Assembly: GCF_019649055.1 (NCBI RefSeq)
Contig: NW_026570223.1
Location: 2,790,001 to 2,854,000 of the forward strand
Source of the DNA: Paramacrobiotus metropolitanus
Lineage: Eukaryota; Tardigrada; Eutardigrada; Parachela; Macrobiotidae
DNA: 64,000 nt
Direction of reading: 5' to 3'
Below, piece by piece: positions 1 through 63,359 of the stretch. The notes under the pieces are model-generated. The model ran no database searches. It was not told the DNA's origin and saw only the letters and a program-made list of their open reading frames with translations. Position 1 is the first letter of the stretch; each line of letters opens with the position of its first letter. The position numbers and the translations under genes are program-made.

Positions 1-3000
1 ACTGACACGACGACAAGCACCGCCAGTACGTCGACGGACACTAGCACCGATACCAGCACGTCTACAGTGTCCAGTACGGATACTACCACTGACACGACAT
101 CGACGTCCACGGACACGACCACCAGTACTGACACAACGTCCACGTCCACGGACACGACCACCAGTGCTGACAGGTAACTTAGCGGCGACGGGACTTGTAA
201 CATTGAGATTGTGTTTCTGAGTGCGGTCGGCCGAATGGAATGTTTTGGAGAATAGCAAAGCCCCCGGTTTTTGCACGCAGGAAAGAGTAGGCAGTCGAGA
301 ACGGGTTGGGAGTCTGACATAACGCGCTTAGCTCCAAGGGGGTAGTGGATTAGTCGGAGCAGTGAGAAAAATCGTTGAGCACATGCTGGCCTAGCGCCAG
401 CCGGTCTTAGGCTAGCAGCCAAAAGCATCATGATCACAGGGAGTGCTGACCGGCATGTTCTATCTTTGCTGCAGCACTACCGACACAACAACCACTCCCA
501 CCACGACAGACACGACAACAACCGCGACCAGTACTGATACGACAACGGACACTACCACAACTGACACGACGACAAGCACCGCCAGTACGTCGACGGACAC
601 TAGCACCGATACCAGCACGTCTACAGTGTCCAGTACGGATACTACCACTGACACGACATCGACGTCCACGGACACGACCACCAGTACTGACACAACGTCC
701 ACGTCCACGGACACGACCACCAGTACTGACAGGTAACTTAGCGGCGACGGGACTTGTAACATTGAGATTGTGTTTCTGAGTGCGGTCGGCCGAATGGAAT
801 GTTTTGGAGAATAGCAAAGCCCCCGGTTTTTGCACGCAGGAAAGAGTAGGCAGTCGAGAACGGGTTGGGAGTCTGACATAACGCGCTTAGCTCCAAGGGG
901 TAGTGGATTAGTCGGAGCAGTGAGAAAAATCGTTGAGCACATGCTGGCCTAGCGCCAGCCGGTCTTAGGCTAGCAGCCAAAAGCATCATGATCACAGGGA
1001 GTGCTGACCGGCATGTTGTATCTTTGCTGCAGCACTACCGACACAACAACCACTCCCACCACGACAGACACGACAACAACCGCGACCAGTACTGATACGA
1101 CAACGGACACTACCACAACTGACACGACGACAAGCACCGCCAGTACGTCGACGGACACTAGCACCGATACCAGCACGTCTACAGTGTCCAGTACGGATAC
1201 TACCACTGACACGACATCGACGTCCACGGACACGACCACCAGTACTGACACAACGTCCACGTCCACGGACACGACCACCAGTGCTGACAGGTAACTTAGC
1301 GGCGACGGGACTTGTAACATTGAGATTGTGTTTCTGAGTGCGGTCGGCCGAATGGAATGTTTTGGAGAATAGCAAAGCCCCCGGTTTTTGCACGCAGGAA
1401 AGAGTAGGCAGTCGAGAACGGGTTGGGAGTCTGACATAACGCGCTTAGCTCCAAGGGGGTAGTGGATTAGTCGGAGCAGTGAGAAAAATCGTTGAGCACA
1501 TGCTGGCCTAGCGCCAGCCGGTCTTAGGCTAGCAGCCAAAAGCATCATGATCACAGGAGTGCTGACCGGCATGTTCTATCTTTGCTGCAGCACTACCGAC
1601 ACAACAACCACTCCCACCACGACAGACACGACAACAACCGCGACCAGTACTGATACGACAACGGACACTACCACAACTGACACGACGACAAGCACCGCCA
1701 GTACGTCGACGGACACTAGCACCGATACCAGCACGTCTACAGTGTCCAGTACGGATACTACCACTGACACGACATCGACGTCCACGGACACGACCACCAG
1801 TACTGACACAACGTCCACGTCCACGGACACGACCACCAGTACTGACAGGTAACTTAGCGGCGACGGGACTTGTAACATTGAGATTGTGTTTCTGAGTGCG
1901 GTCGGCCGAATGGAATGTTTTGGAGAATAGCAAAGCCCCCGGTTTTTGCACGCAGGAAAGAGTAGGCAGTCGAGAACGGGTTGGGAGTCTGACATAACGC
2001 GCTTAGCTCCAAGGGGGTAGTGGATTAGTCGGAGCAGTGAGAAAAATCGTTGAGCACATGCTGGCCTAGCGCCAGCCGGTCTTAGGCCAGCAGCCAAAAG
2101 CATCATGGTCACAGGGAGTGCTGACCGGCATGTTGTATCTTTGCTGCAGCACTACCGACACAACAACCACTCCCACCACGACAGACACGACAACAACCGC
2201 GACCAGTACTGATACGACAACGGACACTACCACAACTGACACGACGACAAGCACCGCCAGTACGTCGACGGACACTAGCACCGATACCAGCACGTCTACA
2301 GTGTCCAGTACGGATACTACCACTGACACGACATCGACGTCCACGGACACGACCACCAGTACTGACACAACGTCCACGTCCACGGACACGACCACCAGTA
2401 CTGACAGGTAACTTAGCGGCGACGGGACTTGTAACATTGAGATTGTGTTTCTGAGTGCGGTCGGCCGAATGGAATGTTTTGGAGAATAGCAAAGCCCCCG
2501 GTTTTTGCACGCAGGAAAGAGTAGGCAGTCGAGAACGGGTTGGGAGTCTGACATAACGCGCTTAGCTCCAAGGGGGTAGTGGATTAGTCGGAGCAGTGAG
2601 AAAAATCGTTGAGCACATGCTGGCCTAGCGCCAGCCGGTCTTAGGCTAGCAGCCAAAAGCATCATGATCACAGGGAGTGCTGACCGGCATGTTGTATCTT
2701 TGCTGCAGCACTACCGACACAACTACCACTCCCACCACGACAGACACGACAACAACCGCGACCAGTACTGATACGACAACGGACACTACCACAACTGACA
2801 CGACGACAAGCACCGCCAGTACGTCGACGGACACTAGCACCGATACCAGCACGTCTACAGTGTCCAGTACGGATACTACCACTGACACGACATCGACGTC
2901 CACGGACACGACCACCAGTACTGACACAACGTCCACGTCCACGGACACGACCACCAGTACTGACAGGTAACTTAGCGGCGACGGGACTTGTAACATTGAG

Positions 3001-6000
3001 ATTGTGTTTCTGAGTGCGGTCGGCCGAATGGAATGTTTTGGAGAATAGCAAAAGCCCCCGGTTTTAGCACGCAGGAAAGAGTAGGCAGTCGAGAACGGGT
3101 TGGGAGTCTGACATAACGCGCTTAGCTCCAAGGGGTAGTGGATTAGTCGGAGCAGTGAGAAAAATCGTTGAGCACATGCTGGCCTAGCGCCAGCCGGTCT
3201 TAGGCTAGCAGCCAAAAGCATCATGATCACAGGAGTGCTGACCGGCATGTTGTATCTTTGCTGCAGCACTACCGACACAACAACCACTCCCACCACGACA
3301 GACACGACAACAACCGCGACCAGTACTGATACGACAACGGACACTACCACAACTGACACGACGACAAGCACCGCCAGTACGTCGACGGACACTAGCACCG
3401 ATACCAGCACGTCTACAGTGTCCAGTACGGATACTACCACTGACACGACATCGACGTCCACGGACACGACCACCAGTACTGACACAACGTCCACGTCCAC
3501 GGACACGACCACCAGTACTGACAGGTAACTTAGCGGCGACGGGACTTGTAACATTGAGATTGTGTTTCTGAGTGCGGTCGGCCGAATGGAATGTTTTGGA
3601 GAATAGCAAAGCCCCCGGTTTTTAGCACGCAGGAAAGAGTAGGCAGTCGAGAACGGGTTGGGAGTCTGACATAACGCGCTTAGCTCCAAGGGGTAGTGGA
3701 TTAGTCGGAGCAGTGAGAAAAATCGTTGAGCACATGCTGGCCTAGCGCCAGCCGGTCTTAGGCCAGCAGCCAAAAGCATCATGATCACAGGGAGTGCTGA
3801 CCGGCATGTTGTATCTTTGCTGCAGCACTACCGACACAACAACCACTCCCACCACGACAGACACGACAACAACCGCGACCAGTACTGATACGACAACGGA
3901 CACTACCACAACTGACACGACGACAAGCACCGCCAGTACGTCGACGGACACTAGCACCGATACCAGCACGTCTACAGTGTCCAGTACGGATACTACCACT
4001 GACACGACATCGACGTCCACGGACACGACCACCAGTACTGACACAACGTCCACGTCCACGGACACGACCACCAGTGCTGACAGGTAACTTAGCGGCGACG
4101 GGACTTTGTAACATTGAGATTGTGTTTCTGAGTGCGGTCGGCCGAATGGAATGTTTTGGAGAATAGCAAAGCCCCCGGTTTTTGCACGCAGGAAAGAGTA
4201 GGCAGTCGAGAACGGGTTGGGAGTCTGACATAACGCGCTTAGCTCCAAGGGGTAGTGGATTAGTCGGAGCAGTGAGAAAAATCGTTGAGCACATGCTGGC
4301 CTAGCGCCAGCCGGTCTTAGGCCAGCAGCCAAAAGCATCATGATCACAGGGAGTGCTGACCGGCATGTTGTATCTTTGCTGCAGCACTACCGACACAACA
4401 ACCACTCCCACCACGACAGACACGACAACAACCGCGACCAGTACTGATACGACAACGGACACTACCACAACTGACACGACGACAAGCACCGCCAGTACGT
4501 CGACGGACACTAGCACCGATACCAGCACGTCTACAGTGTCCAGTACGGATACTACCACTGACACGACATCGACGTCCACGGACACGACCACCAGTACTGA
4601 CACAACGTCCACGTCCACGGACACGACCACCAGTACTGACAGGTAACTTAGCGGCGACGGGACTTGTAACATTGAGATTGTGTTTCTGAGTGCGGTCGGC
4701 CGAATGGAATGTTTTGGAGAATAGCAAAGCCCCGGTTTTGCACGCAGGAAAGAGTAGGCAGTCGAGAACGGGTTGGGAGTCTGACATAACGCGCTTAGCT
4801 CCAAGGGGGTAGTGGATTAGTCGGAGCAGTGAGAAAAATCGTTGAGCACATGCTGGCCTAGCGCCAGCCGGTCTTAGGCTAGCAGCCAAAAGCATCATGA
4901 TCACAGGGAGTGCTGACCGGCATGTTCTATCTTTGCTGCAGCACTACCGACACAACAACCACTCCCACCACGACAGACACGACAACAACCGCGACCAGTA
5001 CTGATACGACAACGGACACTACCACAACTGACACGACGACAAGCACCGCCAGTACGTCGACGGACACTAGCACCGATACCAGCACGTCTACAGTGTCCAG
5101 TACGGATACTACCGCTGACACGACATCGACGTCCACGGACACGACCACCAGTACTGACACAACGTCCACGTCCACGGACACGACCACCAGTACTGACAGG
5201 TAACTTAGCAGCGACGGGACTTGTAACATTGAGATTGTGTTTCTGAGTGCGGTCGGCCAAATGGAATGTTTTGGAGAATAGCAAAGCCCCCGGTTTTAGC
5301 ACGCAGGAAAGAGTAGGCAGTCGAGAACGGGTTGGGCGTCTGACATAACGCGCTTAGCTCCAAGGGGGTAGTGGATTAGTCGGAGCAGTGAGAAAAATCG
5401 TTGAGCACATGCTGGCCTAGCGCCAGCCGGTCTTAGGCTAGCAGCCAAAAGCATCATGACCACAGGAGTGCTGACCGGCATGTTCTATCTTTGCTGCAGC
5501 ACTACCGACACAACAACCACTCCCACCACGACAGACACGACAACAACCGCGACCAGTACTGATACGACAACGGACACTACCACAACTGACACGACGACAA
5601 GCACCGCCAGTACGTCGACGGACACTAGCACCGATACCAGCACGTCTACAGTGTCCAGTACGGATACTACCACTGACACGACATCGACGTCCACGGACAC
5701 GACCACCAGTACTGACACAACGTCCACGTCCACGGACACGACCACCAGTACTGACAGGTAACTTAGCGGCGACGGGACTTGTAACATTGAGATTGTGTTT
5801 CTGAGTGCGGTCGGCCGAATGGAATGTTATGGAGAATAGCAAAGCCCCCGGTTTTGCACGCAGGAAAGAGTAGGCAGTCGAGAACGGGTTGGGAGTCTGA
5901 CATAACGCGCTTAGCTCCAAGGGGTAGTGGATTAGTCGGAGCAGTGAGAAAAATCGTTGAGCACATGCTGGCCTAGCGCCAGCCGGTCTTAGGCCAGCAG

Positions 6001-9000
6001 CCAAAAGCATCATGATCACAGGAGTGCTGACCGGCATGTTGTATCTTTGCTGCAGCACTACCGACACAACAACCACTCCCACCACGACAGACACGACAAC
6101 AACCGCGACCAGTACTGATACGACAACGGACACTACCACAACTGACACGACGACAAGCACCGCCAGTACGTCGACGGACACTAGCACCGATACCAGCACG
6201 TCTACAGTGTCCAGTACGGATACTACCACTGACACGACATCGACGTCCACGGACACGACCACCAGTACTGACACAACGTCCACGTCCACGGACACGACCA
6301 CCAGTACTGACAGGTAACTTAGCGGCGACGGGACTTGTAACATTGAGATTGTGTTTCTGAGTGCGGTCGGCCGAATGGAATGTTTTGGAGAATAGCAAAG
6401 TCCCCGGTTTTTGCACGCAGGAAAGAGTAGGCAGGCGAGAACGGGTTGGGAGTCTGACATAACGCGCTTAGCTCCAAGGGGGTAGTGGATTAGTCGGAGC
6501 AGTGAGAAAAATCGTTGAGCACATGCTGGCCAGGCGCCAGCCGGTCTTAGGCCAGCAGCCAAAAGCATCATGGTCACAGGGAGTGCTGACCGGCATGTTC
6601 TATCTTTGCTGCAGCACTACCGACACAACAACCACTCCCACCACGACAGACACGACAACAACCGCGACCAGTACTGATACGACAACGGACACTACCACAA
6701 CTGACACGACGACAAGCACCGCCAGTACGTCGACGGACACTAGCACCGATACCAGCACGTCTACAGTGTCCAGTACGGATACTACCACTGACACGACATC
6801 GACGTCCACGGACACGACCACCAGTACTGACACAACGTCCACGTCCACGGACACGACCACCAGTACTGACAGGTAACTTAGCGGCGACGGGACTTGTAAC
6901 ATTGAGATTGTGTTTCTGAGTGCGGTCGGCCGAATGGAATGTTTTGGAGAATAGCAAAGCCCCGGTTTTGCACGCAGGAAAGAGTAGGCAGTCGAGAACG
7001 GGTTGGGAGTCTGACATAACGCGCTTAGCTCCAAGGGGTAGTGGATTAGTCGGAGCAGTGAGAAAAATCGTTGAGCACATGCTGGCCTAGCGCCAGCCGG
7101 TCTTAGGCCAGCAGCCAAAAGCATCATGATCACAGGAGTGCTGACCGGCATGTTCTATCTTTGCTGCAGCACTACCGACACAACAACCACTCCCACCACG
7201 ACAGACACGACAACAACCGCGACCAGTACTGATACGACAACGGACACTACCACAACTGACACGACGACAAGCACCGCCAGTACGTCGACGGACACTAGCA
7301 CCGATACCAGCACGTCTACAGTGTCCAGTACGGATACTACCACTGACACGACATCGACGTCCACGGACACGACCACCAGTACTGACACAACGTCCACGTC
7401 CACGGACACGACCACCAGTACTGACAGGTAACTTAGCGGCGACGGGACTTGTAACATTGAGATTGTGTTTCTGAGTGCGGTCGGCCGAATGGAATGTTAT
7501 GGAGAATAGCAAAGCCCCCGGTTTTTGCACGCAGGAAAGAGTAGGCAGTCGAGAACGGGTTGGGAGTCTGACATAACGCGCTTAGCTCCAAGGGGTAGTG
7601 GATTAGTCGGAGCAGTGAGAAAAATCGTTGAGCACATGCTGGCCTAGCGCCAGCCGGTCTTAGGCTAGCAGCCAAAAGCATCATGATCACAGGAGTGCTG
7701 ACCGGCATGTTGTATCTTTGCTGCAGCACTACCGACACAACAACCACTCCCACCACGACAGACACGACAACAACCGCGACCAGTACTGATACGACAACGG
7801 ACACTACCACAACTGACACGACGACAAGCACCGCCAGTACGTCGACGGACACTAGCACCGATACCAGCACGTCTACAGTGTCCAGTACGGATACTACCAC
7901 TGACACGACATCGACGTCCACGGACACGACCACCAGTACTGACACAACGTCCACGTCCACGGACACGACCACCAGTACTGACAGGTAACTTAGCGGCGAC
8001 GGGACTTGTAACATTGAGATTGTGTTTCTGAGTGCGGTCGGCCGAATGGAATGTTTTGGAGAATAGCAAAGCCCCCGGTTTTTGCACGCAGGAAAGAGTA
8101 GGCAGTCGAGAACGGGTTGGGAGTCTGACATAACGCGCTTAGCTCCAAGGGGTAGTGGATTAGTCGGAGCAGTGAGAAAAATCGTTGAGCACATGCTGGC
8201 CAGGCGCCAGCCGGTCTTAGGCCAGCAGCCAAAAGCATCATGGTCACAGGGAGTGCTGACCGGCATGTTCTATCTTTGCTGCAGCACTACCGACACAACA
8301 ACCACTCCCACCACGACAGACACGACAACAACCGCGACCAGTACTGATACGACAACGGACACTACCACAACTGACACGACGACAAGCACCGCCAGTACGT
8401 CGACGGACACTAGCACCGATACCAGCACGTCTACAGTGTCCAGTACGGATACTACCACTGACACGACATCGACGTCCACGGACACGACCACCAGTACTGA
8501 CACAACGTCCACGTCCACGGACACGACCACCAGTACTGACAGGTAACTTAGCGGCGACGGGACTTGTAACATTGAGATTGTGTTTCTGAGTGCGGTCGGC
8601 CGAATGGAATGTTTTGGAGAATAGCAAAGCCCCGGTTTTGCACGCAGGAAAGAGTAGGCAGTCGAGAACGGGTTGGGAGTCTGACATAACGCGCTTAGCT
8701 CCAAGGGGTAGTGGATTAGTCGGAGCAGTGAGAAAAATCGTTGAGCACATGCTGGCCTAGCGCCAGCCGGTCTTAGGCCAGCAGCCAAAAGCATCATGAT
8801 CACAGGGAGTGCTGACCGGCATGTTCTATCTTTGCTGCAGCACTACCGACACAACAACCACTCCCACCACGACAGACACGACAACAACCGCGACCAGTAC
8901 TGATACGACAACGGACACTACCACAACTGACACGACGACAAGCACCGCCAGTACGTCGACGGACACTAGCACCGATACCAGCACGTCTACAGTGTCCAGT

Positions 9001-10214
9001 ACGGATACTACCACTGACACGACATCGACGTCCACGGACACGACCACCAGTACTGACACAACGTCCACGTCCACGGACACGACCACCAGTACTGACAGGT
9101 AACTTAGCAGCGACGGGACTTGTAACATTGAGATTGTGTTTCTGAGTGCGGTCGGCCGAATGGAATGTTTTGGAGAATAGCAAAGCCCCCGGTTTTAGCA
9201 CGCAGGAAAGAGTAGGCAGTCGAGAACGGGTTGGGCGTCTGACATAACGCGCTTAGCTCCAAGGGGGTAGTGGATTAGTCGGAGCAGTGAGAAAAATCGT
9301 TGAGCACATGCTGGCCTAGCGCCAGCCGGTCTTAGGCTAGCAGCCAAAAGCATCATGATCACAGGGAGTGCTGACCGGCATGTTGTATCTTTGCTGCAGC
9401 ACTACCGACACAACAACCACTCCCACCACGACAGACACGACAACAACCGCGACCAGTACTGATACGACAACGGACACTACCACAACTGACACGACGACAA
9501 GCACCGCCAGTACGTCGACGGACACTAGCACCGATACCAGCACGTCTACAGTGTCCAGTACGGATACTACCACTGACACGACATCGACGTCCACGGACAC
9601 GACCACCAGTACTGACACAACGTCCACGTCCACGGACACGACCACCAGTACTGACAGGTAACTTAGCGGCGACGGGACTTGTAACATTGAGATTGTGTTT
9701 CTGAGTGCGGTCGGCCGAATGGAATGTTTTGGAGAATAGCAAAGCCCCCGGTTTTTGCACGCAGGAAAGAGTAGGCAGTCGAGAACGGGTTGGGAGTCTG
9801 ACATAACGCGCTTAGCTCCAAGGGGTAGTGGATTAGTCGGAGCAGTGAGAAAATCGTTGAGCACATGCTGGCCTAGCGCCAGCCGGTCTTAGGCTAGCAG
9901 CCAAAAGCATCATGATCACAGGGAGTGCTGACCGGCATGTTCTATCTTTGCTGCAGCACTACCGACACAACAACCACTCCCACCACGACAGACACGACAA
10001 CAACCGCGACCAGTACTGATACGACAACGGACACTACCACAACTGACACGACGACAAGCACCGCCAGTACGTCGACGGACACTAGCACCGATACCAGCAC
10101 GTCTACAGTGTCCAGTACGGATACTACCACTGACACGACATCGACGTCCACGGACACGACCACCAGTACTGACACAACGTCCACGTCCACGGACACGACC
10201 ACCAGTACTGACAG
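1..10214 (+). CDS. Array exons 1-19
   Basis: Exon 1 is cut by the window edge and ends at 173. The following exons, all 258 nt, start at 475, 1033, 1591, 2150, 2709, 3267, 3826, 4385, 4942, 5500, 6056, 6615, 7170, 7727, 8285, 8841, 9400 and 9957. All donors and acceptors are intact. Intron sequence upstream of several of these exons reads GCATGTTGTATC instead of the usual GCATGTTCTATC, a G/C variant in the pyrimidine tract (for example before 1033, 2150, 2709, 3267, 3826, 4385, 6056, 7727 and 9400). It is largely confined to this end of the array. The intron at 5200-5499 carries a rare haplotype shared with the far end of the array. Confidence 0.72.
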
Positions 10215-31200: not shown

Positions 31201-34200
31201 GACGCGCTTAGCTCCAAGGGGGTAGTGGATTAGTCGGAGCAGTGATAAAAATCGTTGAGCACATGCTGGCCATGCGCCAGCCGGTCTTAGGCCAGCAGCC
31301 AAAAGCATCATGTCACAGGGAGTGCTGACCGGCATGTTCTATCTTTGCTGCAGCACTACCGACACAACAACCACTCCCACCACGACAGACACGACAACAA
31401 CCGCGACCAGTACTGATACGACAACGGACACTACCACAACTCACACGACGACAAGCACCGCCAGTACGTCGACGGACACTAGCACCGATACCAGCACGTC
31501 TACAGTGTCCAGTACGGACACTACCACTGACACGACATCGACGTCCACGGACACGACCACCAGTACTGACACAACGTCCACGTCCACGGACACGACCACC
31601 AGTACTGACAGGTAACTTAGCAGCGACGGGACTTGTAACATTGAGATTGTGTTTCTGAGTGCGGTCGGCCGAATGGAATGTTTTGGAGAATAGCAAAGCC
31701 CCCGGTTTTTGCACGCAGGAAAGAGTAGGCAGTCGAGAACGGGTTGGGAGTCTGACATGACGCGCTTAGCTCCAAGGGGGTAGTGGATTAGTCGGAGCAG
31801 TGATAAAAATCGTTGAGCACATGCTGGCCATGCGCCAGCCGGTCTTAGGCCAGCAGCCAAAAGCATCATGTCACAGGAGTGCTGACCGGCATGTTCTATC
31901 TTTGCTGCAGCACTACCGACACAACAACCACTCCCACCACGACAGACACGACAACAACCGCGACCAGTACTGATACGACAACGGACACTACCACAACTCC
32001 GACACGACGACAAGCACCGCCAGTACGTCGACGGACACTAGCACCGATACCAGCACGTCTACAGTGTCCAGTACGGACACTACCACTGACACGACATCGA
32101 CGTCCACGGACACGACCACCAGTACTGACACAACGTCCACGTCCACGGACACGACCACCAGTACTGACAGGTAACTTAGCAGCGACGGGACTTGTAACAT
32201 TGAGATTGTGTTTCTGAGTGCGGTCGGCCGAATGGAATGTTTTGGAGAATAGCAAAGCCCCCGGTTTTTGCACGCAGGAAAGAGTAGGCAGTCGAGAACG
32301 GGTTGGGAGTCTGACATGACGCGCTTAGCTCCAAGGGGGTAGTGGATTAGTCGGAGCAGTGATAAAAATCGTTGAGCACATGCTGGCCATGCGCCAGCCG
32401 GTCTTAGACCAGCAGCCAAAAGCATCATGTCACAGGGAGTGCTGACCGGCATGTTCTATCTTTGCTGCAGCACTGCCGACACAACAACCACTCCCACCAC
32501 GACAGACACGACAACAACCGCGACCAGTACTGATACGACAACGGACACTACCACAACTGACACGACGACAAGCACCGCCAGTACGTCGACGGACACTAGC
32601 ACCGATACCAGCACGTCTACAGTGTCCAGTACGGATACTACCACTGACACGACATCGACGTCCACGGACACGACCACCAGTACTGACACAACGTCCACGT
32701 CCACGGACACGACCACCAGTACTGACAGGTAACTTAGCGGCGACGGGACTTGTAACATTGAGATTGTGTTTCTGAGTGCGGTCGGCCGAATGGAATGTTT
32801 TGGAGAATAGCAAAGCCCCCGGTTTTTGCACGCAGGAAAGAGTAGGCAGTCGAGAACGGGTTGGGAGTCTGACATAACGCGCTTAGCTCCAAGGGGGTAG
32901 TGGATTAGTCGGAGCAGTGAGAAAAATCGTTGAGCACATGCTGGCCATGCGCCAGCCGGTCTTAGGCCAGCAGCCAAAAGCATCATGGTCACAGGGAGTG
33001 CTGACCGGCATGTTCTATCTTTGCTGCAGCACTACCGACACAACAACCACTCCCACCACGACAGACACGACAACAACCGCGACCAGTACTGATACGACAA
33101 CGGACACTACCACAACTGACACGACGACAAGCACCGCCAGTACGTCGACGGACACTAGCACCGATACCAGCACGTCTACAGTGTCCAGTACGGATACTAC
33201 CACTGACACGACATCGACGTCCACGGACACGACCACCAGTACTGACACAACGTCCACGTCCACGGACACGACCACCAGTACTGACAGGTAACTTAGCGGC
33301 GACGGGACTTGTAACATTGAGATTGTGTTTCTGAGTGCGGTCGGCCGAATGGAATGTTTTGGAGAATAGCAAAGCCCCGGTTTTGCACGCAGGAAAGAGT
33401 AGGCAGTCGAGAACGGGTTGGGAGTCTGACATAACGCGCTTAGCTCCAAGGGGTAGTGGATTAGTCGGAGCAGTGAGAAAAATCGTTGAGCACATGCTGG
33501 CCTAGCGCCAGCCGGTCTTAGGCCAGCAGCCAAAAGCATCATGGTCACAGGGAGTGCTGACCGGCATGTTCTATCTTTGCTGCAGCACTACCGACACAAC
33601 AACCACTCCCACCACGACAGACACGACAACAACCGCGACCAGTACTGATACGACAACGGACACTACCACAACTGACACGACGACAAGCACCGCCAGTACG
33701 TCGACGGACACTAGCACCGATACCAGCACGTCTACAGTGTCCAGTACGGATACTACCACTGACACGACATCGACGTCCACGGACACGACCACCAGTACTG
33801 ACACAACGTCCACGTCCACGGACACGACCACCAGTACTGACAGGTAACTTAGCGGCGACGGGACTTGTAACATTGAGATTGTGTTTCTGAGTGCGGTCGG
33901 CCGAATGGAATGTTTTGGAGAATAGCAAAGCCCCCGGTTTTTGCACGCAGGAAAGAGTAGGCAGTCGAGAACGGGTTGGGAGTCTGACATAACGCGCTTA
34001 GCTCCAAGGGGTAGTGGATTAGTCGGAGCAGTGAGAAAAATCGTTGAGCACATGCTGGCCAGGCGCCAGCCGGTCTTAGGCCAGCAGCCAAAAGCATCAT
34101 GGTCACAGGGAGTGCTGACCGGCATGTTCTATCTTTGCTGCAGCACTACCGACACAACAACCACTCCCACCACGACAGACACGACAACAACCGCGACCAG

Positions 34201-55200: not shown

Positions 55201-58200
55201 CACATGCTGGCCTAGCGCCAGCCGGTCTTAGGCTAGCAGCCAAAAGCATCATGACCACAGGGAGTGCTGACCGGCATGTTCTATCTTTGCTGCAGCACTA
55301 CCGACACAACAACCACTGCCACCACGACAGACACGACAACAACCGCGACCAGTACTGATACGACAACGGACACTACCACAACTGACACGACGACAAGCAC
55401 CGCCATTACGTCGACGGACACTAGCACCGATACCAGCACGTCTACAGTGTCCAGTACGGATACTACCACTGACACGACATCGACGTCCACGGACACGACC
55501 ACCAGTACTGACACAACGTCCACGTCCACGGACACGACCACCAGTACTGACAGGTAACTTAGCGGCGACGGGACTTGTAACATTGAGATTGTGTTTCTGA
55601 GTGCGGTCGGCCGAATGGAATGTTTTGGAGAATAGCAAAGCCCCCGGTTTTTGCACGCAGGAAAGAGTAGGCAGTCGAGAACGGGTTGGGAGTCTGACAT
55701 AACGCGCTTAGTTCCAAGGGGGTAGTGGATTAGTCGGAGCAGTGAGAAACATCGTTGAGCACATGCTGGCCTAGCGCCAGCCGGTCTTAGGCTAGCAGCC
55801 AAAAGCATCATGACCACAGGGAGTGCTGACCGGCATGTTCTATCTTTGCTGCAGCACTACCGACACAACAACCACTCCCACCACGACAGACACGACAACA
55901 ACCGCGACCAGTACTGATACGACAACGGACACTACCACAACTGACACGACGACAAGCACCGCCAGTACGTCGACGGACACTAGCACCGATACCAGCACGT
56001 CTACAGTGTCCAGTACGGATACTACCACTGACACGACATCGACGTCCACGGACACGACCACCAGTACTGACACAACGTCCACGTCCACGGACACGACCAC
56101 CAGTACTGACAGGTAACTTAGCGGCGACGGGACTTGTAACATTGAGATTGTGTTTCTGAGTGCGGTCGGCCGAATGGAATGTTTTGGAGAATAGCAAAGC
56201 TTCCGGTTTTTGCACGCAGGAAAGAGTAGGCAGTCGAGAACGGGTTGGGAGTCTGACATGACGCGCTTAGCTCCAAGGGGGTAGTGGAATAGTCGGAGCA
56301 GTGAGAAAAATCGTTGAGCACATGCTGGCCTAGCGCCAGCCGGTCTTAGGCTAGCAGCCAAAAGCATCATGACCACAGGGAGTGCTGACCGGCATGTTCT
56401 ATCTTTGCTGCAGCACTACCGACACAACAACCACTCCCATTACGACAGACACGACAACAACCGCGACCAGTACTGATACGACAACGGACACTACCACAAC
56501 TGACACGACGACAAGCACCGCCAGTACGTCGACGGACACTAGCACCGATACCAGCACGTCTACAGTGTCCAGTACGGATACTACCACTGACACGACATCG
56601 ACGTCCACGGACACGACCACCAGTATTGCCACAACGTCCACGTCCACGGACACGACCACCAGTACTGACAGGTAACTTAGCGGCGACGGGACTTGTAACA
56701 TTGAGATTGTGTTTCTGAGTGCGGTCGGCCGAATGGAATGTTTTGGAGAATAGCAAAGCCCCCGGTTTTTGCACGCAGGAAAGGGTAGGCAGTCGAGAAA
56801 GGGTTGGGAGTCTGACATAACGCGCTTAGCTCCAAGGGGGTAGTGGATTAGTCGGAGCAGTGAGAAAAATCGTTGAGCACATGCTGGCCTAGCGGCAGCC
56901 GGTCTTAGGCTAGCAGCCAAAAGCATCATGGTCACAGGGAGTGCTGACCGGCATGTTCTATCTTTGCTGCAGCACTACCGACACAACAACCACTCCCACC
57001 ACGACAGACACGACAACAACCGCGACCAGTACTGATACGACAACGGACACTACCACAACTGACACGACGACAAGCACCGCCAGTACGTCGACGGACACTA
57101 GCACCGATACCAGCACGTCTACAGTGTCCAGTACGGATACTACCACTGACACGACATCGACGTCCACGGACACGACCACCAGTACTGACACAACGTCCAC
57201 GTCCACGGACACGACCACCAGTACCGGCAGGTAAATTAGCGGCGACGGGACTTGTAACATTAAGATTGTGTTTCTGAGTGCGGTCGGCCGAATGGAATGT
57301 TTTGAAAAATAGCAAAGCCCCCGGTTTTTGCACGCAGGAAAGAGTAGGCAGTCGAGAACGGGTTGGGAGTCTGACATAACGCGCTTAGCTCCAAGGGGGT
57401 AGTGGATTAGTCGGAGCAGTGAGAAAAATCGTTGAGCACATGCTGGCCTAGCGCCAGCCGGTCTTAGGCTAGCAGCCAAAAGCATCATGGTCACAGGGAG
57501 TGCTGACCGGCATGTTTTTATGGGTAGATGATCTCTTTTTTCGCCGAAAAATTTTTTGTAGGTTCGTTTCAAGAGTTAGGAAACATGTACCTGCAAAGCA
57601 TATAACAAAAAAAACTAAATTTATGGAAATTAGGAAGAAAAATGTTACAGGGAAAAGTTGATAATCGATTGCCACTTACAATGAAAATTCGTAAAAAGCG
57701 GTCCCTGTTTTTGCTCATTCTAGTACTGTATAGTTCCAACAAAATGAGCACGAGTACTTGAGTACTTGAGTTGGGTATTGACCACGAGTACTTGAGTTGG
57801 GTATTAGCTTTAATAATTACCTTATTTTTCTCCTGTTGTTATCGGTAGTGTTTTTTTATAATAATTTTATGCATATACCGGGTGGCCCAAAAAAATGGCG
57901 GTCTCCGTTTTTGTTTCACTGCTCTTGAACCGCTTGTGGTGCCATACCCGTTTTAGATTCTGTTGATTACAAATTATATTAGCTACTAAAATCAAAAAAC
58001 AGTTTTTTGAAAAGTTATGACACGCTCGTGAAAAGTTGTGAAAACTGAAGTTGTTCGGAAATGTAAAGTGACCCAGCTTTTGGACTAAAGAATTTTGTCT
58101 CCTTTATGATCTATACAAACTATTTCAGTTTCTTTAGTGTTTCATATAGCAAAGAGCGTTTCCTTTCAACAAAAAAAATACGGTTTCCATGGAGCACACA

Positions 58201-61200
58201 ATGGGGGAGCAATGCACTAGATTCACTTTTTGAAAAAATGCAGTTTTTCTGTTTAATTTTTGCTTTTTTTTATTAACATTTTTTACTGCCGGACAGGCTT
58301 CAGCAAAATATGTCAATTTAGTTATTAAATGTAGCTAAGGTGTTGCCTTTATTGAAGCAAGTGTGATTCAGATACTCTCTTTGAGCGTTGGTGAGAAATT
58401 GATTTTCGAAAAAACTGCTGGAGGTTTTCACGAAAATTAAATCTGCGGCGTTCCAGCGCTCCAGTTTCTGGACCGAACACGCTGACCAGAATACCGTATC
58501 TCTTTACGTTAAAAAAAAACAAGGAACAATCCCTCTACTTGGAATACTAAATTGACAAATTTTAATCTACTAAGCTAAACAATAGCAATTTTTAATTCGC
58601 TAATGGAAAAATCCAAATTTTCGGTTCTGGGACACCGTCAAAATCCACCTATTTTATTAAAATAATTCATTAAAAAGTTAAAACTTTGTATATGGTTAAT
58701 ATGATTAAATAATTCTATGCTCCGAACATTGTTCTTCCGAATGAAACTTTTATGAAGTCCATCGGACGTTGGGCGGGGCCAGTGCACCATAATAAACGAG
58801 GCCGCCATTTTGTTGGGCCACCCGGTAACTTTATATTTTAGTGCGATAAAATAGCTTCGTAATCATTTGGCTTAATAGCCATAATCCTGTTTTTCGTAGT
58901 GACTTTAAATGCTCATCTCTTGGTTTACTCATTAATCAAATAAAAATGTTATCGTTACTGGTTTCTTAAACCGCTAAAAGCTGATGTTTCCTGTTTATAT
59001 TTGCCTTTCTTCATTTAAAATTTAGTTGCTTCAAGATAGTTTTCACGCAAATCTTCTGCGCCTTTCTGTTTTAGTTCCAAGAAATGATATCATAAAACTA
59101 TAAAACGCACGAATAACGACCAACCTTATTCACAAAGGGCGAAAATTTTGCTGGACGCGCATAAATGGATAAAGTAGAGCAGTTAAATAATAAACATGAA
59201 AAGCCGCAGTAGCTTATCAAATTTCTCTAGTCGCTTCCGCTAAATCCTCGTACAAAGGAAAAGATTGTAGATTTAGCGGTTTTCTGCAGTACGACTACGA
59301 CGGACACAACAACGCCAACTACAACGTCCACAACGACGGACACTACAACCACAGAAACAACTACGCCGACTACCACGGACACAACAACACCAACTACAAC
59401 GTCCACAACGACGGACACTACAACCACAGAAACAACTACGCCGACTACCACGGACACAACAACGCCAACTACAACGTCCACAACGACGGACACTACAACG
59501 ACCGAAACAACTACCTCGACTACCACCGATACAACAACGCCAACTACAACGTCTACAACGACCGACACTACAACCACAGAAACAACTACGCCGACTACCA
59601 CGGACACAACAACACCAACTACAACGTCCACAACGACGGACACTACAACCCCTACAACGACAGACACTACAACCACAGAAACAACTACACCGACTACCAC
59701 AGACACAACAACGCCAACTACAACGTCCACAACGACGGACACTACAACGACGGAAACAACTACGTCGACTACCACCGATACAACAACGCCAACTACAACG
59801 TCCACAACAACGGACACTACAACCACAGAAACAACTACGTCGACAGCCACCGATACAACAACGCCAACTACAACGTCCACAACGACGGACATTACAACCA
59901 CAGAAACAACTACGCCGACCACCACGGACACAACAACGCCAACTACAACGTCCACAACGACGGACACTACAACGACGGAAACAACTACGTCGACTACCAC
60001 CGATACAACAACGCCAACTACAACGTCCACAACAACGGACACTACAACCACAGAAACAACTACGCCGACTACCACGGACACAACAACGCCAACTACAACG
60101 TCCACAACGACGGACACTACAACCCCTACAACGACAGACACTACAACCACAGAAACAACTACGCCGACTACCACAGACACAACAACGCCAACTACAACGT
60201 CCACAACGACGGACACTACAACGACGGAAACAACTACGTCGACTACCACCGATACAACAACGCCAACTACAACGTCCACAACAACGGACACTACAACCAC
60301 AGAAACAACTACGCCGACCACCACGGACACAACAACGCCAACTACAACGTCCACAACAACGGACACTACAACCACAGAAACAACTACGCCGACCACCACG
60401 GACACAACAACGCCAACTACAACGTCCACAACGACGGACACTACAATCCCTACAACGACAGACACTACAACCACAGAAACAACTACGCCGACTACCACAG
60501 ACACAACAACGCCAACTACAACGTCCGCAACGACGGACACTACAACGACGGAAACAACTACGTCGACTACCACCGATACAACAACGCCAACTACAACGTC
60601 CACCACGACGGACACTACAACACCTACAACGACGGACACTACAACCACAGAAACAACTACGCCGACTACCACGGACACAACAACGCCAACTACAACGTCC
60701 ACAACGACGGGCACTACAACGACCGAAACAACTACGTCGACTACCACCGATACAACAACGCCAACTACAACGTCCACAACAACGGACACTACAACCACAG
60801 AAACAACTACGCCGACTACCACGGACATAACAACGCCAACTACAACATCCACCACGACGGACACTACAACACCTACAACGACGGACACTACAACCACAGA
60901 AACAACTACGTCGACTACCACGGATACAACAACGCCGACTACAACCTCCACAACGACGGACACGACAAGCGATACGACATCTTCGCTAACTGTTCCCACA
61001 CTTAGTGCCGTTAATTCAGTTGATGATAGTACAACTGACAGCACTACGGATTCTACTACCACTACGACATCTACTAGTACAACAACTAACCCGTGCAATC
61101 TGGAGATGTTCTGCTCTGCTTTGCCGGATTCTGCAGTAGGCCCTGATTCTTCAGGAGGACAAGTGTTCGATCAATCGGGTTTTTACTTGTTCTCTGGTGG

Positions 61201-63359
61201 GTACCTTGGTAATACTTATTTGTTCGCTGTTATGTTTCAGTGGTAAAATATTTAGGTTCTTGTGTCCTGCCACTTTCCGTCTGGAGCAAGAATGGTGCCG
61301 GAACACTTACACCTTCTGGCGATCCTGCATTAATCAGCTCCGTGTTTACAACATCACTGACCAGTGTAACGAGAGCTTTTATAAATGATCCAGAGGCTGA
61401 CATGGTTCTGTCCGATGTAAGGAAGCTTTTACAGTTGTCGGATTTTGCTTTCTAAAGCGTATTTAATAAATCACAAAGTAAAATGGCGCTTGGAACTTGA
61501 ATGTTTATGCGCTTACAGGGTACTAGCCTTGAAAGCTGCGGGGCAACCCTTTCAGCTCCATACACATGTAAACCTGGCGCTAAGGCAGTCGCACTTGATT
61601 CATCCCTATCGGCATACTCCAGTTGGATGGAACCTGTTAACTATGGAGCGGTCTATGTAGCGGCTTCGAGTATGTGCTGCGTCAGTTGTTTTCATTGCAT
61701 TTATTGCGTTCTGGCAGGCGCGATTTCATTGGGCCCACATGTAATGTGGTAATAAGTCTGCTCTTTGTTGACTTCCCAGGTGACGGAAAGACATTGCTTT
61801 TCACCGATGGGTCCACTATTTCAACCACCATCAGCATCGCTACAAATCAGTCTACTATCCAGAGAGTGAAAGGACTACAGCATGTGTACGATCAGACTAG
61901 TCAGGAGCATTATCTTTACGTTTTCGGTTTGGATACCAACAATGTGCCTTATTACGGATTGGTTAAACCCGATCCGAGCCCGGCCGTTACCCCGCTTTCG
62001 TCAACCAGCTATAAAGATGTTACGCTCGAGGTGCGGTTGCCCTATGACGAACGAAACTATCGTGTGAACTGTAGCACTAAATTCGTGTTTCCCATTTAGT
62101 GGACCATTCCACCCACTCCATGGAGCCAAATATTCGGCGATAAATGTTCGTCACAAGCAACATCGGCTCCTAATGAGTGCAAGCTGGCTGATTTCTGCAA
62201 GAAGAGTCCGACGGCATCCATGGGTGCTGGATTGTTTTCTCAGGGTGATCTGAATTATTACCTGTTTGATGGTGAGTTTTTAACCTCATTCATGGTGGTA
62301 ATGGAGCGGTAGATCGCCTGTTTTGCTGATTACTCGTACTTATGAAAGTATTGATTTTGGAAAGCAGTGAGCCATGTTTTTTTGCTTCTCGAATGATCTG
62401 ATGCAAGTTTTACATGGACTGTTTTTGCTTACAGATAATGGCTGCGCCCTGAAAGGAACGTTTAGCCCCTCGGGTGAAACCGGTCCTACGCTTACACCTA
62501 CGCTTGGTCCTATGCCCACTGATCAGCTGTTTGCTGGACCATATGCCCCTGTATTGGCAGGAAAATCCGTTATAACAACTAAAGTGGTGCTGGATCAAAG
62601 TGGCAAACCAGAGTTCGAGCTTGTATATGTACGTTGAAGTTGCCCATTGCCGTTTATTTTTGCACTTGAAACACGTTTCGTCGTGCCTGTCCACTCGTAA
62701 TCGCTCGTTACTGCTTGTACCAATACAAAAAAATCACTTTTCTGTAGGATAAGGACGGAAATGCCGTGAAGTGCGTGGAACCGCTCAATGCCGACAACAC
62801 CAAACCTTTCTGTGACGAATTGGTCAAAGTGGATATGACGAATACTTCAGACTTTTCGGCATGGACAGATGGCTCCACATTCAGTATATACTATTTTGTT
62901 AGCGATGGTAAGTCCTAGCTCATACACCATTACCGAAAGCGGACCAAGATGTTCAGGATTGTTTTAATACAATAGGAACCGGAAAAAATATCATGCTGAA
63001 TGACGGCACAAATCATCCTGACCAGTCAGTATCCTTGATTGATGGACAGTCAACAATTGTTGAAGCCACTGCTTTGGATACCTTTAACGATGGGTCTGGC
63101 CAGTATCTGGCTGTGTTTGGTGCAAATGGTGCCGGTACACCATTCGTTGGAATTGCCGGCCTAGAAAATGAGAATGGTCTTTCGGCTACATCAGGACAGC
63201 TCCATCTTAATGTAAGCATTATTCGTACCGATGCGACTATACAGATAGCGCATCTACTTTCACTTGACTATTTTCTTCATATTACAGTGGCAAGCCCAGA
63301 ACGGTGAGAATTTTGTACCGCTTTATAAAACCCTTGTTGGATGTCCAGAAACCAGTTAA
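1..63359 (+). CDS. Giant mucin-like gene, 5' partial: exon array, Thr-rich minisatellite exon and two-module C-terminus
   Basis: Seen: 104 array exons (the first truncated), one 1.9-kb Thr-rich exon and eight small C-terminal exons can be joined in one frame. Array exons end with two codon bases (AG) and begin with one (C), restoring AGC (Ser). The large exon begins with T, giving AGT (Ser). The join therefore stays in frame from the array to the stop at 63,357-63,359, except at one array exon carrying +2 nt. Knowledge: Thr/Ser/Pro-type tandem repeats between cysteine-containing ends are typical of secreted or surface mucins. Inference: an extracellular, heavily O-glycosylated, strongly acidic protein. 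The start codon and any signal peptide lie outside the window. Alternative: the array and the 59.3-63.4 kb part are separate genes, or the array is satellite DNA derived from such a gene. Confidence 0.68.
475..732 (+). CDS. Array exon 2: representative 86-residue Thr/Ser/Asp cassette
   Basis: This is the reference copy: 258 nt flanked by TTTGCTGCAG on the left and GTAACT on the right. By my count the 86 residues include 53 Thr, 16 Ser, 13 Asp, 2 Ala, 1 Pro and 1 Val, with no Lys, Arg, Cys or aromatic residue. The net charge is therefore about -13 per cassette before glycosylation. The distal part holds two adjacent 13-residue copies of TDTTSTSTDTTTS (39 nt each), and this is where two-copy to one-copy deletions occur in other exons. 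Reading past the donor gives Arg then stop (AGG TAA), so retention of any array intron ends translation at once. Confidence 0.75.
733..1032 (+). other. Representative array intron (300 nt)
   Basis: The intron starts GTAACTTAGC and ends TTCTATCTTTGCTGCAG. Across the array its length runs from 284 nt (14,671-14,954, a short internal deletion) to 308 nt (52,197-52,504, a short A-rich insertion), with most copies 297-302. Near its 3' end is a perfect 6-bp inverted repeat, GCTGGC and GCCAGC, around a 5-nt loop. A second GGCCAGC or GGCTAGC about 17 nt further on could pair with the same left arm. I recognise no RNA gene or mobile element in it. Confidence 0.72.
10516..19674 (+). CDS. Array exons 20-36
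   Basis: All 258 nt. Starts: 10516, 11072, 11629, 12185, 12741, 13298, 13856, 14413, 14955, 15513, 16072, 16629, 17188, 17747, 18306, 18862 and 19417. Exon 20 has a Ser-to-Arg change (CCACCCGTACT near 10,720) and a C-to-T variant (CCCACTACGAC) that recurs near 25-30 kb. The intron after exon 27 is shortened to 284 nt, yet both of its splice sites survive. Confidence 0.72.
19975..26586 (+). CDS. Array exons 37-49, the block rich in length variants
   Basis: Exon coordinates: 19975-20226 (252 nt, loses 6), 20525-20758 (234 nt, loses 24), 21060-21317, 21617-21874, 22172-22384 (213), 22685-22942, 23240-23497, 23799-24011 (213), 24312-24524 (213), 24825-25037 (213), 25337-25555 (219), 25856-26068 (213) and 26368-26586 (219). 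Unmarked ones are 258 nt. The 213-nt form lacks the same 45 nt (15 residues) in every copy, and the 219-nt form lacks one 39-nt internal repeat. All are frame-preserving. The 219-nt exons also carry Asp-to-Leu (ACAACTCTCACG). The alternation 213/219/213/219 at 24.8-26.6 kb looks like duplication of a two-unit block. Confidence 0.74.
26888..31611 (+). CDS. Array exons 50-58
   Basis: All 258 nt. Starts: 26888, 27447, 28006, 28563, 29123, 29682, 30240, 30798 and 31354. Several copies vary at the same codon of the cassette: Asp (common), Leu (CTC, exons starting 28563 and 29682), Gly (27447) and His (31354). From about 30.0 kb the introns share a local haplotype: GACATGACGC, GTGATAAAAATCG, and CATCATGTCAC with one base pair fewer than usual. 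Confidence 0.72.
31911..32170 (+). pseudogene. Array exon 59, frame-broken copy (+2 nt)
   Basis: This copy is 260 nt. Compared with neighbours it reads ACAACTCCGACACGACG where others read ACAACTGACACGACG, an extra CC near 31,999. Both splice sites look intact. If included, it shifts the rest of the protein out of the Thr-rich frame into an Arg/Pro-rich one. It is the only array exon in the window whose length is not a multiple of three. It may be a real null cassette that is skipped, a polymorphism, or an assembly error. The same codon is a hotspot of substitution in neighbouring copies (CTC, GGC, CAC). Confidence 0.7.
32471..44442 (+). CDS. Array exons 60-81, the most homogeneous block
   Basis: All 258 nt. 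Starts: 32471, 33030, 33586, 34144, 34702, 35260, 35816, 36374, 36930, 37486, 38046, 38605, 39163, 39721, 40280, 40837, 41396, 41954, 42512, 43070, 43628 and 44185. Apart from a Thr-to-Ala change at the start of exon 60, the encoded cassettes look identical. Units differ almost only at intron homopolymers and at the hairpin loop (CAGGC against CATGC), with one odd loop (CCGTAGGCGCC near 37,960). Confidence 0.73.
44743..49460 (+). CDS. Array exons 82-90
   Basis: All 258 nt. Starts: 44743, 45301, 45858, 46414, 46974, 47530, 48088, 48646 and 49203. The introns after alternate units share GTCGTGAACGGG in place of GTCGAGAACGGG (about 44,565, 45,679, 46,796, 47,911 and 49,024). This every-second-unit pattern is consistent with amplification of a dimer. 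Exon 84 and its downstream intron match the 31-kb region closely. Confidence 0.72.
49758..49967 (+). CDS. Array exon 91, rearranged short cassette (210 nt)
   Basis: This exon has lost 48 nt net and contains a small scramble. After ACCGCGACCAGTACG the order of the internal repeats changes and a novel ACAGTACTAAGC appears near 49,826-49,837, encoding TVLS. Length is still a multiple of three, no stop is introduced, and the splice sites are unchanged. It is the only such event here, unlike the recurrent 45- and 39-nt deletions. Confidence 0.74.
50266..57230 (+). CDS. Array exons 92-104, right end of the array
   Basis: All 258 nt. Starts: 50266, 50824, 51381, 51939, 52505, 53063, 53620, 54179, 54737, 55296, 55855, 56414 and 56973. 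The last four carry more private changes than central copies: Pro-to-Ala and Ser-to-Ile in exon 101, Thr-to-Ile and TDT-to-IAT in exon 103, and Asp-to-Gly at the last codon of exon 104, whose donor is CAG/GTAAAT. This is the edge divergence expected when homogenisation weakens at array margins. Exon 104 is spliced, in this model, to 59,290. Confidence 0.72.
54731..54737 (+). promoter_or_regulatory. Tandem (NAGNAG-type) acceptor of exon 100
   Basis: Every other array acceptor reads TTTGCTGCAG/C. This copy reads TTTGCAGCAG/C, creating a second AG three bases upstream. Use of the upstream AG would add one codon and keep the frame. It is seen in only this unit. Confidence 0.6.
57517..57877. other. 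AT-rich non-coding flank left of the mobile element
   Basis: Unique AT-rich sequence with poly-T and poly-A runs. The only open frames are short and minus-strand, with low-complexity content. I recognise no gene, and the only structure is the direct duplication at 57,749-57,806. Confidence 0.6.
57749..57806. repeat. Short imperfect direct duplication
   Basis: CACGAGTACTTGAG followed by TTGGGTATT occurs twice in succession. The first copy has an extra TACTTGAG. This is a small local duplication between the array edge and the inserted element, with no further meaning visible. Confidence 0.8.
57878..58825. mobile_element. Non-autonomous mariner/Tc1-type element (948 bp)
   Basis: The ends are inverted repeats of about 28 bp. 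The left begins CCGGGTGGCCCAAAAAAATG at 57,878 and the right, read inward on the other strand, begins CCGGGTGGCCCAACAAAATG at 58,825. Both continue GGCGG and differ at a few positions. Each end abuts TA (57,876-57,877 and 58,826-58,827), as expected for the TA target duplication of the Tc1/mariner superfamily. The interior is AT-rich with frequent stops. I see no transposase or DDE/D-like reading frame, so it is a deletion derivative or MITE-like copy. It lies wholly inside the inferred terminal intron. Confidence 0.82.
58826..59289. other. AT-rich non-coding stretch before the minisatellite exon
   Basis: No coding region is supported. An ATG at about 59,195 opens only 15 codons before a stop and does not resemble a signal peptide. 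The last ~20 nt form the acceptor of the next exon. Confidence 0.55.
59290..61196 (+). CDS. Large exon: 25-residue Thr-rich minisatellite leading into the C-terminal domain
   Basis: The exon is 1,907 nt, with one split base on each side and 635 codons between, no stop. From 59,291 to about 60,950 it is a 75-bp tandem repeat encoding variations on DTTTPTTTSTTTDTTTTE followed by TTTPTTT. Some units carry an extra 24 nt inserting PTTTDTTT. Unlike the array cassettes these units are divergent and not interrupted by introns. Thr dominates, with Pro, Asp, Glu and Ser. After about 60,960 the repeat degenerates (SLTVPTLSAVNSVDDS) and a last Thr run leads to NPCNLEMFC at 61,088, the start of the first cysteine-containing module. 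Donor CTCTG/GTGGGT ends in phase 1. The strand is set by the splice sites and the continuing C-terminal frame; the minus-strand Val-rich frame is its antisense shadow. Confidence 0.78.
59291..60960 (+). repeat. 75-bp coding minisatellite
   Basis: Successive GGACACAACAAC motifs are spaced about 75 bp (for example 59,302 and 59,377). Variants with ACCGATACAACAACG and ACGGACATAACAACG also occur. Copies differ by scattered synonymous and nonsynonymous changes, giving a much older look than the 558-bp array. Confidence 0.88.
61241..61416 (+). CDS. C-terminal exon, module A part 2
   Basis: Acceptor TTATGTTTCAG at 61,240 and donor CGAT/GTAAGG, phase 1 in and phase 0 out, 58 whole codons. It encodes VVKYLGSCVLPLSVWSKNG and continues with GAGTLTPSGDP. 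The preceding intron (61,197-61,240) is only 44 nt. An alternative pair, donor at 61,209 with acceptor at 61,255, also keeps the frame (FSGGYLGSC). I prefer the first because the donor position and phase match the homologous exon boundary in module B. One cysteine is visible. The motif LTP plus a following Gly-Pro/Asp-Pro resembles LTPTLGP in the module B counterpart. Confidence 0.65.
61519..61669 (+). CDS. C-terminal exon, module A part 3
   Basis: Acceptor GCGCTTACAG at 61,518 and donor TCGA/GTATGT, phase 0 in and phase 1 out. It encodes GTSLESCGATLSAPYTCKPG and continues through SAYSSWMEPVNYGAVYV. Two cysteines and a central Trp are visible, as in the matching exon of module B (C, C, SAWTDG). 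The upstream intron is 102 nt. Confidence 0.68.
61780..62030 (+). CDS. C-terminal exon, module A part 4
   Basis: Acceptor GACTTCCCAG at 61,779 and donor CGAG/GTGCGG, phase 1 in and phase 0 out, 83 whole codons. It encodes SDGKTLLFTDGST, then NQSTIQRVKGL and HYLYVFGLDTNNVPYYGLV. It lacks cysteines and has the look of a compact beta-rich domain (inference). QSTI and the pattern LxVFGxxxxxxPxxG recur in module B. Without splicing, the frame would run on to a stop at 62,097, which is the TAG of the next acceptor. Confidence 0.68.
62100..62271 (+). CDS. C-terminal exon, end of module A and start of module B
   Basis: Acceptor TTTCCCATTTAG at 62,099 and donor GATG/GTGAGT, phase 0 in and phase 1 out. 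It begins WTIPPTPWSQIFGDKC, the counterpart of WQAQNG at the very C-terminus. After about 27 residues it reaches CKLADFCKKSPT and ends YYLFD, matching CNLEMFCSALPD and FYLFS of module A. This exon therefore fuses the tail of one module to the head of the next, as expected after tandem duplication of a multi-exon block. Confidence 0.7.
62435..62628 (+). CDS. C-terminal exon, module B part 2
   Basis: Acceptor TTTTTGCTTACAG at 62,434 and donor GTATAT/GTACGT, phase 1 in and phase 0 out. It encodes DNGCALKGTFSPSGETGP, then LTPTLGPMPTDQLF and KVVLDQSGKPEFELVY. One cysteine lies near the start, as in module A. Reading through the donor gives Val-Arg-stop. The upstream intron is 163 nt. Confidence 0.7.
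62748..62907 (+). CDS. C-terminal exon, module B part 3
   Basis: Acceptor CACTTTTCTGTAG at 62,747 and donor GATG/GTAAGT, phase 0 in and phase 1 out. It encodes DKDGNAVKCVEPLNADN, then KPFCDELVKVDM and SAWTDGSTFSIYYFVSD. The two cysteines and the single Trp occupy the same order as in the module A exon at 61,519-61,669. Confidence 0.7.
62976..63211 (+). CDS. C-terminal exon, module B part 4
   Basis: Acceptor TTAATACAATAG at 62,975 and donor TTAAT/GTAAGC, phase 1 in and phase 0 out, 78 whole codons. It encodes GTGKNIMLNDGTNHPDQ, then IDGQSTIVEATALDTF and GQYLAVFGANGAGTPFVGIA. It is the clear paralogue of the exon at 61,780-62,030, sharing GK, the DGT/DGS turn, QSTI and the VFG...P..G pattern. 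Confidence 0.72.
63288..63359 (+). CDS. Final coding exon
   Basis: Acceptor CTTCATATTACAG at 63,287. It encodes 23 residues starting WQAQNGENF and ending LVGCPETS, then TAA at 63,357-63,359. The leading Trp matches the start of the module A tail exon. A cryptic donor, AACG/GTGAGAA at 63,300-63,304, lies inside the exon. I treat it as unused because the open frame continues to a nearby stop and poly(A) signals follow. Confidence 0.66.
   Translation, partial: WQAQNGENFVPLYKTLVGCPETS

Follow-up and report, generated by a model that had tools for sequence, protein, structure and literature searches.

The window analysed here, 64,000 nucleotides of Paramacrobiotus metropolitanus DNA at contig positions 2,790,001–2,854,000, carries an array of near-identical exons that probably belongs to a single gene of about 71.5 kb for a secreted, giant mucin-like protein, its cassettes being spliced serially into a rod. 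The predicted layout opens with a signal-like start, three related, weakly hemopexin-like domains and a long Thr-rich exon, continues with 106 cassettes, and closes with another long Thr-rich exon followed by a related pair of C-terminal domains. Splicing of the pre-mRNA from cassette to cassette would give a rod of Thr, Ser and Asp, at most about 8,900 residues long and expected to be densely O-glycosylated. The gene would be transcribed and its product secreted, and the protein may function as a lubricating or protective coat. The array, its splice sites and phases, the flanking gene model and the contrast between exons and introns can be read directly from the assembly.

Structure of the cassette array

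Scanning of the window together with its left flank yields 106 cassette exons, 107 donors and 106 acceptors, extending from the first donor at contig position 2,788,497/8 to the end of the last cassette at 2,847,230 (window position 57,230). To the left of the window lie two further complete cassettes, together with the remainder of cassette 3, which the window edge cuts. In the window, script matching locates 104 donors of the ~558-bp unit and 103 acceptors, the same numbers that a sequence-only reading of this DNA had given for a tandem exon-intron unit with intact sites. GT is present at 107 of 107 array donors and AG at 106 of 106 acceptors. The donor context is CAG/GTAACT in 106 of 107 cases and CAG/GTAAAT in one, and the acceptor context is CAG/CAC in all 106. 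The 106 array introns, measured from a donor to the next cassette acceptor, are 284–308 nt long. The last array intron corresponds to the unit intron over its first 286 nt or so (to 57,516), the remainder being unique sequence.

The prevailing cassette length is 258 nt (95 exons); five cassettes have 213 nt, two have 219 nt, and lengths of 252, 234, 210 and 260 nt occur once each. Phase 2 is shared by both cassette ends, the donor of the upstream exon and the acceptor at 59,290, as had been proposed for the cassettes and the 59,290 exon. The frame symmetry ascribed to the cassettes in the same reading holds for the 105 of 106 exons whose length is a multiple of three and fails for exon 61, which carries two extra bases. 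The spot of these bases is also variable in cassettes 49, 51, 53, 55, 57 and 60. Tandem units consisting of an exon with its splice sites lie inside one gene model with flanking exons in phase, which is the arrangement of a coding exon-intron VNTR.

All 106 cassettes are free of stops in the Thr frame. Since a second reading frame is likewise open in 104 of 106 cassettes and the minus strand of the array has stop-free runs of up to 393 codons, frame openness by itself is weak proof. Retention of an intron would bring in a TAA at most 10 nt past the donor in 105 of the 106 cassette introns.

Gene model around the array

Over its span of 71,453 bp, the complete gene model comprises 128 exons separated by 127 introns, all of them GT-AG (127/127; Table 1); outside the array, splice sites were picked manually to suit phase and domains, and hence their exact positions are part of the model. 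A hydrophobic signal-like stretch begins at the start ATG, which lies 8.1 kb to the left of the window: the first exon starts with MKSLILLTFTAALSYNAVLLSAQ, and the hydrophobic start MKSLILLTFTAALSYNAVLLSA was judged signal-like by eye only. Thus the first exons with a signal peptide that had been expected on the left flank have a plausible counterpart in 13 exons found there. These are 12 exons followed by a Thr-rich exon of 1,919 nt carrying the array's own donor, and they reach the first array donor in phase. The 3' end of the 1,919-nt exon is itself cassette sequence, its last 60 nt being identical to the first cassette (60/60), with 94% identity to the cassette over 87 nt.

On the right, nine exons stay in phase between 59,290 and the TAA at 63,359; the first of them starts in phase 2 and has a Cys-containing domain at its end. 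The matches of the terminal exons (125 aa on the left, 83 aa on the right) in the genome at E ≤ 0.01 are confined to their own gene, three and one, respectively. No Rfam families or tRNAs were found in the window, and the gene is not named in the entries listed by a literature search.

Table 1. Features of the predicted gene and of the related dispersed element (window positions unless stated otherwise)
Feature	Position	Strand	Remarks
13 upstream exons and cassettes 1 and 2, left of window	exons at contig 2781907–2788497 (window -8093 to -1503)	+	
Cassette exon 3, 3' part	1–173	+	cut by window edge
Cassette exons 4–106 with introns	475–57230	+	103 complete; unit ~558 bp, phase 2-2
Cassette exon 61	31911–32170	+	260 nt, sole cassette with length not a multiple of three
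Cassette exon 106 (last)	56973–57230	+	edge unit, diverged end, donor GTAAAT
Last array intron	57231–59289	+	2,059 nt
Downstream Thr-rich non-array exon	59290–61196	+	1,907 nt, TTTDTTTPTTTS / TTTE repeats
C-terminal exon 2	61241–61416	+	
C-terminal exon 3	61519–61669	+	
C-terminal exon 4	61780–62030	+	single copy in genome at E ≤ 0.01
C-terminal exon 5	62100–62271	+	
C-terminal exon 6	62435–62628	+	
C-terminal exon 7	62748–62907	+	
C-terminal exon 8	62976–63211	+	
C-terminal exon 9	63288–63359	+	with stop codon TAA
Unclassified dispersed element with cassette fragment	L018:4522–9030		kin L017, L019–L023

Composition and domains of the predicted protein

The cassettes that are complete in the window (103) amount to about 8,732 codons, and the 105 cassettes remaining when exon 61 is left out encode 8,902 residues, of which T makes up 61.7%, S 18.4% and D 15.0%. 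The earlier estimate of about 8,700 cassette residues, roughly 80% Thr+Ser and 15% Asp, was thus accurate. The region is a long Ser/Thr-rich repeat, as in mucin-like proteins; with proline at 1.2% in the cassettes, it is not a proline-rich PTS domain.

Without exon 61 the model is open over 11,367 aa, about 1.14 MDa before glycosylation. With exon 61 included, the frame shifts and a stop follows after 9,186 residues, so the suggestion that all cassettes could be used in one protein stands only when this exon is omitted. As assembled, the frame break means that exon 61 is skipped, or that it is an assembly error, or that the protein is truncated. The frame also survives skipping of the entire array, with 2,464 aa left open.

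The N-terminus (exons 1–12 and the start of exon 13) contains a domain of about 220 residues in three copies, of which copies 2 and 3 show 35% and 38% identity to copy 1. The Pfam hemopexin family PF00045 matches the N-terminus weakly (38.2 bits, cutoff 21.3), and when the domains are searched singly, two of three match it at E ≤ 1. A PDB profile search produced one MMP12 chain (E = 0.87), ranked below an unrelated chain (E = 0.31). The C-terminus consists of two copies of another domain with 27% identity, and its 506 residues match no Pfam family up to E = 10. For the C-terminal domains, a likeness to hemopexin was not supported: the profile comparison gave a probability of 1.1% and there was no PDB match. 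Pfam matches up to E = 10 for the 795 residues of the N-terminus and the 506 of the C-terminus include neither VWD nor SEA, and somatomedin-B has no Pfam match in the former. Protein searches, one with 500 residues of the N-terminus and one with 506 of the C-terminus, each scored 7,994 candidates and gave no match at E ≤ 0.001, in a collection that may be poor in animal sequences.

Variation of exons and introns

The observed diversity of the exons is lower than that of the introns, and this difference is supported by several counts. Substitutions from the consensus occupy 52 of 26,961 exon cells (0.19%) and 324 of 31,744 intron cells (1.02%), the per-cell intron rate being inflated, since MAFFT sets some intron differences in high-count columns. 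When each distinct change is counted as one position, there are 26 changes per 258 exon positions vs 58 per 301 intron positions (Fisher's test, p = 0.003). For variants seen in at least two copies, where recurrence across copies makes sequencing error unlikely, the counts are 8/258 in the exon vs 26/301 in the intron (p = 0.007). Singleton changes show no difference (18 in the exon vs 32 in the intron, p = 0.14).

Codon-level selection on the cassettes is weakly supported. None of the 26 exon changes makes a stop, and ten are synonymous vs 29% expected (p = 0.21), with pN/pS of 0.67. Of the eight exon changes that recur in two or more copies, five are synonymous (p = 0.053); counting two adjacent changes as one event makes this five of seven (p = 0.026).

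None of the 22 distinct intron indels has a length that is a multiple of three. Among exon gap classes in the alignment six of nine do, and among the exons themselves, judged by total length, 105 of 106 do; the former figure is low because the aligner split one deletion, the odd gaps coming from exons 61 and 93. This exon/intron contrast is biased, as the intron has six homopolymers of at least 4 nt, which favour 1-nt indels, and the exon none; moreover, indels in multiples of three are partly expected in the exons, whose internal repeats have periods of such lengths.

Homogenisation of the array

The 106 cassettes comprise 28 distinct exons, the 106 introns 83 distinct sequences, and the 106 units 86 distinct ones. 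One exon sequence is common to 70 of 106 cassettes, and groups of identical units have up to ten members, so that homogenisation extends over the whole unit, introns included. Adjacent introns resemble each other more than distant ones (Spearman 0.146). The number of intron substitutions from the consensus per copy is 1–8 in the first 30 introns, 1–3 in introns 31–51, 3–7 in introns 52–62, 1–2 in introns 63–83, and 5–8 in the last four. Thus the variation forms a patchwork with a worn right edge and homogeneous inner blocks, and not a smooth gradient from centre to edge. Such a patchwork fits unequal crossing-over or conversion. The exon-plus-intron unit was probably amplified and kept similar by these processes, with selection at the protein level holding the exons cleaner than the introns.

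A cassette fragment in a dispersed element

The exact donor stretch was found at seven other places in the genome, inside a dispersed element. The element fragment consists of about 47 nt of the cassette exon end, the donor and about 281 nt of the intron (328 bp in L018), and its mucin coding sequence is in phase with the donor. The longest matches of the element copies to L018 range from 2.9 to 4.5 kb. The element flank, with at most three mismatches, occurs at 11 places, and the fragment is present in seven of them and absent in three (L024, L026, L027). Derivation of the intron from a mobile element was rejected, because these three places lack the fragment and because the fragment holds in-phase mucin coding sequence together with the donor. 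The fragments differ by 6–12% from the array units and by 0–6% among themselves. Since this divergence exceeds the 1.02% per cell of the array introns, it is most likely that the fragment was copied from the gene to the element before homogenisation of the present array.

The eleventh place, L025:150–560, has the exon end with just the opening bases of the intron, the rest being replaced by unrelated sequence. The last array intron (at 57516) and the L018 fragment (at 5359) both leave the unit sequence at GGCATGTT and then differ. Cassettes 49 and 51 (219 nt) have one of two 39-bp end repeats, as does the element fragment, and share its base at three positions. Towards its right end the element has tandem repeats of about 120 bp, which produce overlapping self-matches. 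The element is left unclassified, as no inverted repeats of at least 18 nt were found at its ends in L018 4400–9200, where only four internal pairs occur. The nuclear-receptor-like appearance of one element ORF (L018 6342–6743, minus strand) found no support in Pfam.

Alternative explanations

It is unlikely that the array is a satellite-like expansion in an intron of a real gene, with the upstream Thr-rich exon joined straight to 59,290 and the cassettes skipped or few of them used. Such a product would keep its frame and would be unharmed by the one frame-breaking cassette; the interior units are strongly homogenised, as satellites are, and the open frames also occur in the second frame and on the minus strand. 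However, neither the intact state of all 106 acceptors and 107 donors nor the smaller number of shared variants in exons than in introns is expected for unused DNA, although sites as short as these could also be preserved by homogenisation alone.

We consider it very improbable that the copy number is largely a product of assembly, the true allele being much shorter or longer and the unit variants being partly read errors. According to the assembly description for P. metropolitanus TYO, Nanopore reads were polished with Illumina reads (PMC8277472), and short reads are unplaceable in near-identical units; the intron indels are often of one base, in an intron with the homopolymers described above. 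Against this, the numerous distinct units, the recurrent variants in blocks and the shared deletion classes are unlike random read errors, and both flanks are unique and in phase. Besides, an assembly error would alter the copy number and not the kind of gene. Hardly credible is a decayed relic, in which the two extra bases of exon 61 would mark a pseudogene: the model shows no other defects, all its introns being GT-AG and the remaining exons, as joined, having no stop, and the exons are cleaner than the introns, which argues against decay. A single expressed gene with serially spliced cassettes remains our preferred reading.

Every cassette but one is frame-neutral, hence gain, loss or skipping of cassettes would alter only the length of the rod. 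A bolder extension of the preferred reading, possible in our view but doubtful, is a mucin of programmable length. Skipping and unequal crossing-over would tune the rod from about 2,460 to more than 11,000 residues at no cost to the frame, obligatory skipping of the frame-broken cassette would bypass its defect, and the unit, with a working-looking donor, would long ago have been spread by a mobile element. With 105 interchangeable frame-neutral cassettes and identical splice sites, a defect in a unit on the scale of one base pair would be bypassed and not lethal.

Comparison with known systems

Lubricin (Proteoglycan 4) has its mucin stretch in one exon, N-terminal somatomedin-B domains and a C-terminal hemopexin domain. 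The predicted protein resembles it in having a large Thr-rich mucin-like stretch and weakly hemopexin-like sequence and in being presumably secreted, but here the hemopexin-like domains are N-terminal and a somatomedin-B match was not found. Hence, by its predicted domain content, it is not lubricin/PRG4. Nor, judged by the same domains, is it a gel-forming mucin, these being described as of the VWD/PTS type (PMC1552070).

A close parallel is in the SmPoMuc genes of Schistosoma mansoni, as far as their published description goes: there a small exon and its flanking intron form tandem repeats that undergo concerted evolution, and their number sets the mucin length (PMC2576457). These genes are thus also mucin genes with homogenised tandem exon-plus-intron units. 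However, the SmPoMuc exon is 27 bp in repeats of about 1 kb, their number being put by Southern blot at about 20 per gene at most, whereas here 258-bp exons occur in 106 copies of a 558-bp unit at one locus. Further, SmPoMuc is a multigene family at several loci, with intron units parted by microsatellites (PMC2576457), while the terminal exons of the present gene have no relatives elsewhere in the genome at E ≤ 0.01. The human LPA kringle IV type-2 repeat, reported as 5.6-kb units in 1–40 copies per allele (PMC11462820), is similar in that in-gene tandem exon-plus-intron units set the length of a secreted protein; it encodes folded kringle domains, unlike the 106 units of 558 bp here, which would encode an unfolded Thr/Ser/Asp rod. 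Spider silk genes and Coccidioides SOWgp are cited in the SmPoMuc report as having repeated exons and near-identical introns under concerted evolution, the introns of silk genes being more homogenised than the exons (PMC2576457). Here the exons are the more homogenised part, and the composition of the silk and SOWgp proteins is unrelated to that of the cassette protein.

Homogenised exon-intron arrays are already known from SmPoMuc and LPA KIV-2; what is new lies in the number of copies, in the gene itself and in the fragment captured by the element. A further departure from these two is that a cassette of one exon would make up a mucin rod. If transcribed as modelled, the array would be among the longest arrays of single-exon clones in one gene, in a comparison that is not a census, and its product, of about 1.1 MDa before glycosylation, would be a predicted giant secreted glycoprotein in a probably anhydrobiotic tardigrade. 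It would offer a natural test of ordered spliceosome pairing of 107 identical donors with 106 identical acceptors, of the split between selection and homogenisation in the exon and intron of the same repeat, and of the evolution of mucin length.

Genome context

CAHS proteins are a eutardigrade family, and a CAHS stretch used as a query matches 17 places in the genome, the best with 82–85% identity. A nematode origin was considered and rejected, as the nematode SL1 sequence gave no match with up to 1 mismatch and the CAHS matches indicate a eutardigrade. The genome analysed has 169,799,020 bases in 533 contigs, and 111.6 kb of flank has a GC content of 41.5%. The summary figures published for the assembly of Paramacrobiotus sp. 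TYO, later P. metropolitanus, are 170,483,395 bp, 684 scaffolds and 43.46% GC (PMC8277472, PMC11191345).
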